64,000 nt of DNA, from contig JAFANP010000034.1 of NCBI GenBank assembly GCA_019232625.1, positions 1 to 64,000 on the forward strand, in the 5' to 3' direction. Below the pieces are notes generated by a model. It was not told where the DNA came from and ran no database searches. It saw only the letters and a program-made list of their open reading frames with translations. Made by a program: the position numbers and the translations under genes. The DNA comes from Alphaproteobacteria bacterium. GTDB taxonomy: Bacteria > Pseudomonadota > Alphaproteobacteria > Sphingomonadales > Sphingomonadaceae. Below are positions 43,340 to 45,995 of the stretch, piece after piece; position 1 is the stretch's first letter, and each line of letters begins with the position of its first letter.

Positions 43340-44290
43340 ATGCGCTACCTCGCCGCCGCCGCCGCTCTCCTGCTCCTCGCCGGGCCGGCCAGCGCCGTTC
43401 CGCCCCGGGCCGCCGCGGCGGCGAAGCCCTTCGCGCCGACCCGCTTCTCGGTCGAGGTCGAGGGCAACGGGCCGGACGTGATCCTCATCCCCGGACTCAC
43501 CGCCTCGGCCGGCATATGGCGGGGCACCGTCGCCGCCGTGCCCGGCTATCGCTACCATCTCGTCCAGGTCGCGGGTTTCGCCGGCGCGCCGTCGCGCGGC
43601 AACGCGCGGGGCGAGGTGGTGGCGCCGCTCGCCGAGGAGATATCCCGCTACGTCGCCGCGCGCGGGCTGGTCCGCCCCGCGATCGTCGGCCATTCGATGG
43701 GCGGCACGGTGGCGATGATGGTCGCGGCGCGCCACCCGGACCGGGTCGGCAAGGTGATGGTGGTGGACATGCTGCCGCAGCCGGCGGGGCTGCTCGGCGC
43801 CTCGGCGTCGGGCCTGCGCGGCCTTGCCGGCCTTCTCCGCGACCTGGGCGGAAGCGAGGCGGGCCGCAGCCTCGTTGGTTCGGCGATCCGGATGTTCGGA
43901 AGCGATCCCGGGGAGAATGGCCGCAGCGATCCCGACGTCGTCGCGCGAGCCGCCCAGGAGCTGGCGGTGACCGATCTCACGCCGGAGCTGCCGCGTATCG
44001 CGGCGCCGCTGACGGTGGTCTACGCCTCGCCGGACCCGCAGCGGCGTGCGGCGGTCGACCGGGCTTTCGAGTCGGCTTATGCGGGAAGGAAGGGCGCCAA
44101 GCTCGTCCGGCTGGACGGCAGCGGCCACATGGTCATGTACGACCAGCCGCGGCGCTTCGCGGAGGCGCTGAGGGCGTTCCTCGGGGCGTCGCCGCCAGGA
44201 ACAGCTGCAGGCGCCGCATCCACTGGAGGTAGAGCGAGCGGGCCCGCATCTCAGGCGGCCTCGGGCGCGACCCAGGCGGCGACGAGGTAG
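43340..44290 (+). CDS. Secreted alpha/beta-fold hydrolase
   Basis: A 316-residue protein. A signal peptide covers about the first 19 residues (RYLAAAAALLLLAGPASA). The hydrolase core has LIPGLTASAGIW for the oxyanion region, the nucleophile S119 in VGHSMGGT and a histidine in DGSGHMVMYDQP. The last 30 or so residues are low-complexity Ser/Ala/Gly, and their codons are the reverse of the pspC 3' end (44251-44290), so the tail may be a read-on after loss of an earlier stop. Substrate unknown; possibly periplasmic ester hydrolysis. Confidence 0.88.
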   Translation: MRYLAAAAALLLLAGPASAVPPRAAAAAKPFAPTRFSVEVEGNGPDVILIPGLTASAGIWRGTVAAVPGYRYHLVQVAGFAGAPSRGNARGEVVAPLAEEISRYVAARGLVRPAIVGHSMGGTVAMMVAARHPDRVGKVMVVDMLPQPAGLLGASASGLRGLAGLLRDLGGSEAGRSLVGSAIRMFGSDPGENGRSDPDVVARAAQELAVTDLTPELPRIAAPLTVVYASPDPQRRAAVDRAFESAYAGRKGAKLVRLDGSGHMVMYDQPRRFAEALRAFLGASPPGTAAGAASTGGRASGPASQAASGATQAATR

Positions 44291-44439
44291 ATGGCGACCG
44301 CGGCCGGGCCGATGATGAACAGGCTGGCGACGGCGGCGAGCCGCACCAGGGTGACGTCCACCTCCGTCGCGGCGGCGATCCCGGCGCAGACGCCGGAGAG
44401 CTTGCGGTTGGCGCGATCGAGGGCGAAGGGACGGGTCAT
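44251..44439 (-). CDS. PspC domain small membrane protein
   Basis: A 62-residue protein that is essentially one PspC domain: RKLSGVCAGIAAATEVDVTL, followed by a hydrophobic segment of about 20 residues (VASLFIIGPAAVAIYLVAAW). PspC proteins sense envelope stress and in enterobacteria belong to the sigma-54/PspF phage-shock regulon. Here the gene follows a 37-residue protein gene with a sigma-54 promoter match upstream, so the same control is plausible. pspA, pspB and pspF are not in the window. Confidence 0.88.
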   Translation of the reverse strand: MTRPFALDRANRKLSGVCAGIAAATEVDVTLVRLAAVASLFIIGPAAVAIYLVAAWVAPEAA

Positions 44440-44483: not shown

Positions 44484-44597
44484 TCAGATGAGCTGACCGA
44501 CCGGCCCGACGGCGGCGGAAACGAACAGGGTGGCGGCGACGAGGGCGCCGACGATGGAAACCGCGAACTGCTGCGCATTGGCGAAATTGAAGGACAT
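44484..44597 (-). CDS. 37-residue single-span membrane protein
   Basis: A 37-residue protein. It begins MSFNFANAQQFA and continues as a hydrophobic run (IVGALVAATLFVSAAVGPV), so one membrane segment is expected. GGGAG lies at a good distance before the ATG. It precedes the PspC gene by 45 bases and follows the sigma-54 match by about 50 bases. I recall similar short proteins in other sphingomonads. Function unknown; an envelope-stress role is suggested by context. Confidence 0.75.
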   Translation of the reverse strand: MSFNFANAQQFAVSIVGALVAATLFVSAAVGPVGQLI

Positions 44598-44649
44598 TGT
44601 CTTACTCCCTGATCCGGCGTCCGGACTGTCCGGCGCCATGCCAAGGGTA

Positions 44650-44667
44650 TTGCAGAGCCCGTGCCAA
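44650..44667 (-). promoter_or_regulatory. Putative sigma-54 (RpoN) promoter before the small protein-PspC genes
   Basis: On the minus strand the sequence reads TTGGCACGGGCTCTGCAA. It fits the consensus TGGCACG-N4-TTGCW with one mismatch, and GG and GC are separated by exactly ten bases as required. It is about 50 bases upstream of the 37-residue gene, leaving room for a short leader and the GGGAG ribosome site. A 12-bp palindrome, GCGGAAATCCGC (44680-44691), lies just upstream and could bind a regulator. Known PspF/sigma-54 control of psp genes supports this reading. Confidence 0.65.
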
Positions 44668-44805
44668 ATGGACGGAATGGCGGAAATCCGCGGTTTCTTG
44701 AACAAGAGGACGGCCAGCCCGAGAATTGCCGCCTCAACAATTGGTGAAAATTCCCAAGCCTTGGCGACCGCCTTCGAGCGTCTTCGTCCGAAACCGGACA
44801 GGCGG

Positions 44806-45374
44806 TCAGCGGCCGTTCGGGCCGAGGTCGAGGACGAAGACTGGGCCGAGGTCGATCGTCTGCTTCGCGGTGGCGAGATGGACCGAGACGTTGAGCGCGC
44901 CCGCCGGATAGTCGCGGTCGACCTTGCCCTCACCTCGTACATCTTCCATTCCGACCCGATCGTCGCCGGGCCGGAGAAGAGCGGCGTGTAGGGCGCGGCG
45001 GCGAGCTGGACCTGATTGGAAGGAAGGAGGGCCGTGGTCGCGCCGCCCTCGCCCTTCACGAGCCGGGCCCAGAAAGCGAGGACGAGGACGTCGCCGGCCT
45101 TGACCGGCTTGGCGATCGGGTTGGCGGCGGCGACGTCCCAAGGATGGGCGCCCTTGCCCGGCACCTCGACCCGCACCGCCTTGCCGCCCTGCACACCGGC
45201 ATCCTTGCGCAGCGCCGGCTTGTCGCGGAGGCCGTCGATCCGCCAGGCCGAAGGCGGCGGCACGTTGATCACCTTGTCGAGGATGTCGCCGGCGCCCGAC
45301 TGCGCGGCGAGCGCGGCCGGCGCGGCCGGCGCGGCCGCCAATGCGAGCGTCGCGGCGAGACGTAGGACCTTCAT
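44806..45374 (-). pseudogene. Secreted carbohydrate-binding-like protein, frameshifted
   Basis: A protein of about 189 residues when read across a one-base shift. It has a good ribosome site (GAGGAAGGGGG), a signal peptide of about 24 residues and a beta-rich domain resembling carbohydrate-binding jelly rolls (VLAFWARLVKGEGG and EWKMYEV). After EWKMYEV, near 44925-44936, the sensible continuation (GEGKVDRDYPAGALNVSVHL, ending in LDLGPNGR) is in another frame; one base appears missing. It is either a recent pseudogene or a sequencing error. The in-frame read would run on past the real stop with basic nonsense. Confidence 0.7.
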
Positions 45375-45455: not shown

Positions 45456-45995
45456 ATGCGCATATTCGTGACGGCGGCCGCGGCGGCCCTGGCCCTCCTC
45501 CCTGCCTCGGCCTCGGCGGCGCTTCCCCAGGGGGGCAAGGCGCCCGACTTCAGGACCGTCGGCGCGCTTGCCGGCAAGCCCTTCCGGCTCCACCTCGCCG
45601 AGCAGCTGCGGCGCGGGCCGGTGGTGCTCTATTTCTTCCCCAAGGCCTTCACCAAGGGCTGCACGCTCGAAGCGCACGCTTTTTCGGAAGCGGCGGGGGA
45701 GTTCAAGAAGATGGGCGCCAGCGTCGTCGGTCTCTCGGCCGACGATTACGAGACGCTGCGCCGCTTCTCGGTGGAGGAATGCCGCAATGCCTTCCCGGTG
45801 GCGATGGCCTCCTCGGCGACGATCGGCGCCTATGACGTCCGCTTCAAGGAAGGCGCGGCACTGACCAATCGCACGTCCTACGTAATCGCCCCGGACGGCC
45901 GCATCCTGCTCGCTTATTCCGACCTCGACTGGAAGAACCACGTCGCCAACAGCCTTGCGGCGGTCAAAGCGTGGCGGGCCGCGCACCGGCGGTGA
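45456..45995 (+). CDS. Secreted peroxiredoxin (AhpC/TSA or Bcp type)
   Basis: A 179-residue thiol peroxidase. Residues 1-21 form a signal peptide, so it should be periplasmic. The peroxidatic cysteine is C69 in FTKGCTLEA, with the TxxC pattern; a second cysteine, C109, in VEECRNAFP may resolve it. The domain ends with VIAPDGRILLAYSD. It reduces peroxides with thioredoxin-like partners. Its stop overlaps the GTG start of the DUF488 gene by four bases. Confidence 0.9.
   Translation: MRIFVTAAAAALALLPASASAALPQGGKAPDFRTVGALAGKPFRLHLAEQLRRGPVVLYFFPKAFTKGCTLEAHAFSEAAGEFKKMGASVVGLSADDYETLRRFSVEECRNAFPVAMASSATIGAYDVRFKEGAALTNRTSYVIAPDGRILLAYSDLDWKNHVANSLAAVKAWRAAHRR

Follow-up and report, generated by a model that had tools for sequence, protein, structure and literature searches.

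Organization of a pspC locus with a small leading gene

The window analysed here is a 64-kb stretch of contig C52 from a 3.6-Mb genome, which was scanned in full. On its minus strand it carries, in the 5'→3' direction, an enhancer-like element, a palindromic box, a -24/-12 promoter, a leader of ~50 nt, a 37-codon gene, a gap of 44 nt and a 62-codon pspC gene. The PspF-type enhancer (UAS; 44740–44769, minus strand) was located with a UAS matrix, has a TTGG-N9-CCAA core at 44741–44757, and is an element beyond those described in the original prediction. Between enhancer and promoter lies the palindromic box GCGGAWWTCCGC (44680–44691, strandless), placed in the same register as the genus consensus. 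The sigma-54 promoter TTGGCACGGGCTCTGCAA (44650–44667, minus strand) was identified by mismatch count, matrix score and conservation, and the end of the leader (44598–44615, minus strand) contains AGGGAG, likely the ribosome-binding site of the small gene. This gene (44484–44597, minus strand) encodes the 37-residue protein MSFNFANAQQFAVSIVGALVAATLFVSAAVGPVGQLI, with a single helix predicted at residues 5–36, as assessed from family alignments, relatives in the genus and AlphaFold2.

The second gene (44251–44439, minus strand) had been named as pspC in the original prediction, and a PF04024 match (E=1.5e-16; 60.4 bits, cut-off 25) bears out this identity. Its 62-residue product consists of the PspC domain only, missing the full-length equivalog TIGR02978 (46.6 bits vs 104). 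Such minimal PspC proteins, of 58–65 residues, are found in 32 of the 37 small gene–pspC units measured in the genus and in other genera (37 of 39 loci, the remaining two having no recognised start). A search of contigs with the window PspC returned five remote loci only, and was uninformative on relatives.

Upstream of the unit, a secreted-looking gene (44806–45374, minus strand) appears frameshifted near position 44930, which accounts for a mechanical 296-residue ORF (44484–45374) running through the small gene. A divergent, peroxiredoxin-like gene (AhpC/TSA, 45456–45995) lies near the window pspC unit, and among 38 other loci, many of them possibly incomplete, five (L055, L059, L062, L066 and L069) have an AhpC/TSA gene after the pspC unit.

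The genome contains four PspC loci. The classical locus is on contig C31, where pspF is divergent from a small gene–pspA–pspB–pspC operon; contig C41 has a second operon of small gene, pspA, pspB and pspC; C52 is the window unit; and C44 has a pspC without the small gene. A block of palindrome-CATTCC-N6-TTGGCACG is common to C31, C41 and C52 with identical spacing. A separate sigma-54-like site and a UAS (11.5 bits, p=0.005) accompany the C44 pspC (L039), where the small gene is absent. At C31 (L037), the UAS overlaps the start of pspF, so that autorepression would be possible, as in E. coli.

The sigma-54 promoter is conserved upstream of the small gene

The original prediction had proposed a correctly spaced sigma-54 match, TTGGCACG-GGCT-CTGCAA, ~50 bases before the small genes on the minus strand, differing from the consensus at one base. 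Indeed, the site lies at 44650–44667, deviates from TGGCACGNNNNTTGCW at a single position and has the GG-N10-GC arrangement of TGGCAC-N5-TTGCW-type promoters, and the ATG of the 37-residue protein lies ~50 nt after the -12 element. CTG is the commonest -12 form, occurring in 31 of 63 first-in-unit promoters from relatives and the own genome (TTG in 15 of 63), so the apparent mismatch is ordinary in these bacteria. TTGGCACGGGCTCTGCAA is the only site with ≤1 mismatch in the 64-kb window, and in a whole-window scan with a matrix from which the window had been excluded, it scored 23.6 bits, against 14.5 bits for the next best site. At low stringency there was no motif enrichment, either in the window at ≤3 mismatches (35 matches vs 74.5 expected) or in the genome under a reversed control (110 matches vs 193); the case for the promoter is therefore made by score and conservation, not by counts.

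Conservation of the -24/-12 element, on which the original prediction had staked itself, was strongly positive: for 62 of 69 small genes, none of 100 shuffles reached the score of the best sigma-54 site upstream. Six of the seven genes below this level are second copies of tandem pairs, and the seventh (L092) has a clear site scoring 16.4 bits, where the highest shuffle reached 16.7. The promoter matrix was built from 37 strict sites of the same locus set and applied with one row left out at a time, near relatives being kept in. The shuffles for the promoter and UAS tests were first-order resamplings, as opposed to exact dinucleotide shuffles, and the relatedness of the sequences means that both the shuffle and the Fisher values exaggerate significance. 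As the 16 profile seeds had mostly been drawn from loci with an already observed promoter, we repeated the promoter count without them, and all 48 non-seed genes among the 63 first-in-unit genes had a site of >9 bits 60–100 nt upstream. Over the 63 first-in-unit genes the distance from promoter to start is 62–97 nt, and the gene following the small gene is pspA in 35 units, pspC in 18 and neither recognisably in 10.

A PspF-type enhancer probably links the unit to the psp regulon

To define the enhancer we searched 16 pspF-divergent promoters, and no others, for an ungapped motif. The result, TTGGCGnATTTTCCCAAnnnTTGGCAAg, lies 91–93 bp upstream of the -24 element in 12 of these promoters and further off in four. 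In the window, the element at 44740–44769 is the top hit of the resulting matrix (23.6 bits, next independent hit 7.1 bits), and in the promoter scan it scored 19.2, with none of 200 shuffles exceeding 9.1. Among 47 small-gene promoters unlinked to pspF, 37 have a UAS at p≤0.05 and 10 have none that reaches significance; the core is nearly palindromic, and only 25 of the 47 have their best match on the plus strand.

The proteins expected for such a system are encoded in the genome. rpoN is present with one full domain match (PF04552, E=1.7e-65), and a second, partial match at a contig edge (L035, L036) reflects either two genes or one split by the assembly. PspF scores 479.6 bits against the TIGR02974 cut-off of 443.55 (479.2 in the genome search). 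Across the order, 231 of 246 genomes, the own genome among them, have a pspF that exceeds the curated cut-off; we use this number since relaxing the threshold to E≤1e-80 gives 245 of 246 but may also admit other enhancer-binding proteins. Control by PspF and sigma-54, which had been guessed from analogy, thus gains support from the shared enhancer, from the wide distribution of pspF and from the presence of rpoN. Overall, putative sigma-54/PspF control of the window unit is strongly supported by comparison, with binding of PspF suggested by motif sharing only.

We also searched 298 genomes of the family with a composite, DNA-only pattern of UAS and sigma-54 promoter. In the own genome it has three matches (C31, C41 and C52) and no control match; as the pattern was written after these three sites had been seen, only the absence of other own-genome matches is informative. 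The pattern was matched in 125 of the 298 genomes, and by our count 17 of the entries listed had a control match. Thirty composite-pattern loci were returned, 23 of them psp units and seven not, and a short ORF of 36–59 residues leads 22 of the 23 psp units, the other (L276) having a longer form. This genus supplies seven of the 23, one of which is the own C31 locus.

The small gene belongs to a recurrent family of predicted membrane proteins

The 37-residue protein of the window belongs to a family defined by a short, single hydrophobic helix, a VGAL/AAVGP motif and a position as first ORF after a PspF-type promoter. Sixteen members from several genera align with the consensus ...VGAL...AAVGP, and AlphaFold2, run on a single sequence, predicts one helix at residues 5–36 (pLDDT 87.6). 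Scans of the short proteins returned neither a Pfam hit, even at E≤1, nor an NCBIfam family above its cut-off. Pfam includes models for PspG and PspD.

A first search of the family with the 37-residue peptide (E≤1) gave matches in 48 of 119 genomes, many of them inside long ORFs, and 29 loci were examined. A search of the class matched 4 of 385 genomes, namely the own genome, one of the same family and two of other families, in a draw with few members of the order; the two other-family matches were rejected as chance, being located inside frames of 666 and 803 residues. A protein profile then gathered 69 non-redundant small genes (the window, three own loci, L054–L112 and L143–L162). The small family was found in all 26 genus genomes searched, with 1–6 matches each. 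The original prediction had called for the same promoter and small gene before pspC in relatives, and at least 21 of the 26 genus genomes have the small gene directly before pspC, a number obtained by our assignment of loci to genomes from a subset of the hits. Of the 71 genus loci entries, two (L213 and L217) have a misassigned start or lie outside any psp context, and a third, L214, lacks a PspC match. In the order as a whole, 52 of 246 genomes match the small family at E≤0.01, probably an underestimate, since the DNA pattern search finds more divergent peptides.

Linkage of the gene to psp genes in many genera upholds the 37-residue protein as a candidate new phage-shock component, and, as judged from sequence, the small peptide is likely to be a working part of the Psp system.

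Alternative readings of the palindrome, the small gene and the promoter

A palindrome had been noted upstream of the promoter, and GCGGAAATCCGC at 44680–44691 does pair at 5 of 6 positions. We profiled it in the 64 of 71 genus small-gene loci entries whose promoters passed 11 bits. The consensus GGCGG-W4-CCGCC stands at a fixed place; 43 of the 64 promoters retain 8 or more of its 10 arm bases, 26 retain 9 or more and 58 retain 6 or more. The palindrome is probably not a PspF site, given that the enhancer lies ~50 bp further upstream. It may instead be the site of a dedicated second regulator and not a structural element, a reading that we consider possible though less probable than its opposite: the motif is clear in the genus and includes G/C positions beyond what bending by A tracts would require, but across the order (63 promoters) mainly its A/T core is kept, and the upstream A/T content is periodic at ~10 bp. 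This period is 9.75–10.5 bp, depending on the stretch, and is in register with the -24 element. Its power in the genus (110 bp) was 1.05, against a shuffle maximum of 0.037; these shuffles test for any positional signal, so it is the period, not the size of the power, that is informative. IHF is reported to bend the psp promoter region in E. coli (PMC3709507), and we infer that bending of upstream A/T-tract DNA might replace or join IHF here.

The small ORF could also serve only as a leader through which the pspC message is better expressed or more stable, with a peptide that is itself inert. This we regard as unlikely. The spacing between the promoter and the start of the small gene is indeed almost constant, and coding evidence is modest: codon positions 1–3 differ at 0.37, 0.26 and 0.45 among 26 genus sequences, and a pN/pS of ~0.7 (0.70) indicates weak purifying selection. 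Moreover, quite different short ORFs fill the slot in other families. Among 20 pspF loci examined, at least 10 from other families of the order have a short arginine-rich ORF between promoter and pspA, while pspA is itself the first gene of the pspF-linked operon in three loci of g77; such unrelated ORFs are a warning against a simple story of peptide function. Against an inert leader, the hydrophobic helix recurs throughout the family with a nearly invariant proline, small genes occur in tandem (four in L164 of genome G318, three in L172 of G324), and some versions are extended by a TonB_C-like domain.

In L068, the small-protein N-terminus is extended into a longer protein with a TonB_C match over the cut-off, while the extended protein of L061 has a TonB_C match just under it; L150 and L276 have extended forms as judged by eye. 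In L230 and L244 (genus g25, 2.1-Mb genomes), pspF loci have a longer, TonB-like ORF in the slot, also by eye. The unrelated arginine-rich ORF, of ~50–70 residues and often starting with MNIL, lies between the sigma-54 site and pspA in L231–L238, L240 and L249.

It is quite improbable that the sigma-54 promoter is served by a different enhancer-binding protein, for example of the NtrC or FlbD type. The genome has six strong sigma-54 activators, five of them besides PspF (relatives have 3–8 strong enhancer-binding proteins in all; 44 genomes), but the window enhancer matches those of pspF-divergent promoters. Among seven other sigma-54-like sites of the own genome, the UAS is present at the C44 pspC (p=0.005), marginal at one site (p=0.035) and lacking at five (p≥0.26), that is, at five of the six sites other than C44. 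Finally, a chance promoter match, with the 37 residues being the end of a 296-residue protein, is barely credible: the frame is open from 45374 to 44484, but promoter and enhancer fall within it, the ~110 residues before the 37 look to us like an out-of-frame, R/S-rich translation, and relatives encode a free-standing peptide.

Discussion

At the level of sequence, our comparisons establish the predicted promoter and enhancer, the gene order and the conservation of each. The conserved promoter and enhancer before a small gene and pspC, together with the composite-pattern hits, make it highly probable that the window holds a two-gene satellite unit of the Psp response and the PspF regulon, made up of a sigma-54 promoter, an enhancer, a gene for a small membrane protein and a minimal pspC.

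The steps that would operate such a unit, from PspF binding and DNA looping to membrane insertion and the function of the pair, we infer as follows. Upon envelope stress, PspF would be freed from PspA, as is established for E. coli, and would bind the enhancer ~90–100 bp upstream of the -24 element to activate sigma-54 RNA polymerase at TTGGCACG-N4-CTGCA. A/T tracts spaced ~10 bp apart, the palindrome core included, would help the DNA bend into a loop. The transcript would yield a single-helix, 37-residue inner-membrane peptide and a minimal PspC, and the pair would most likely act as an inner-membrane auxiliary of the main PspABC system, adjusting its activity and either sensing membrane damage or stabilising the damaged membrane, a role comparable to that of PspG or PspD in E. 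coli.

A broader and more tentative proposal, which we put forward as possible but on balance doubtful, is that sphingomonad-type bacteria have rebuilt the Psp response on an undescribed family of tiny membrane proteins. There would be several dispersed PspF promoters per genome, most of them leading with the peptide; peptide and domain-only PspC would form a separate module able to work without PspA; and GGCGG-W4-CCGCC would add a second input. The comparative signature predicts several PspF targets per genome, as against one operon plus pspG in E. coli, and points to an overlooked small-protein family that recurs ahead of psp genes. The system offers a test, feasible in environmental bacteria kept as laboratory strains, of the role of a small Psp protein and of whether PspC acts apart from PspA, and the motif pair can guide the annotation of genes that may be listed as hypothetical in databases. 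Among the listed titles and abstract openings of open-access papers, we found no account of the sphingomonad small family, its promoter or satellite pspC units.

The unit resembles the E. coli psp regulon (pspABCDE, pspG, PspF, sigma-54 and IHF) in several respects: PspF and RpoN are present, psp genes stand under -24/-12 promoters with an upstream enhancer, and pspF is divergent from pspA. Release of PspF by PspA, enhancer binding and activation are described for E. coli in two reports (PMC3709507, PMC9239133), the latter giving the psp operon and pspG as the PspF targets (PMC9239133). Unlike in E. coli, three PspF-type promoters were matched here, two of them serving extra pspA or pspC units, and a small gene whose protein has no pspD- or pspG-type domain heads each of the three matched units. 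Like PspG and PspD, the 37-residue protein is small, apparently PspF-controlled and predicted to reside in the membrane, making a similar role plausible; unlike them, it has no counterpart in Pfam (E≤1) or NCBIfam.

Parallels are also found in Zymomonas and Sphingomonas. In Zymomonas mobilis, the accessible text of one study lists phage shock proteins ZMO1061, ZMO1063 (pspA), ZMO1064 (pspB) and ZMO1065 (pspC) with the hypothetical ZMO1062 between them, and its authors suggested a psp regulon that includes ZMO1062 (PMC3495753). We take ZMO1061 to be pspF, and liken ZMO1062 to the small gene by its position and description there; that part of the study describes no satellite pspC unit for Zymomonas (PMC3495753). 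In Sphingomonas parapaucimobilis (NZ_CP155749.1), whose records share 82.6% (PspA) and 73.8% (polA) identity with this genome and so place it among the sphingomonads, pspF is divergent from a small gene and pspABC with a sigma-54 site and UAS. The small protein (WP_347091103.1), of 48 residues and annotated as hypothetical, is of similar make by eye; it heads a pspF-linked operon, unlike the satellite pspC unit of the window.
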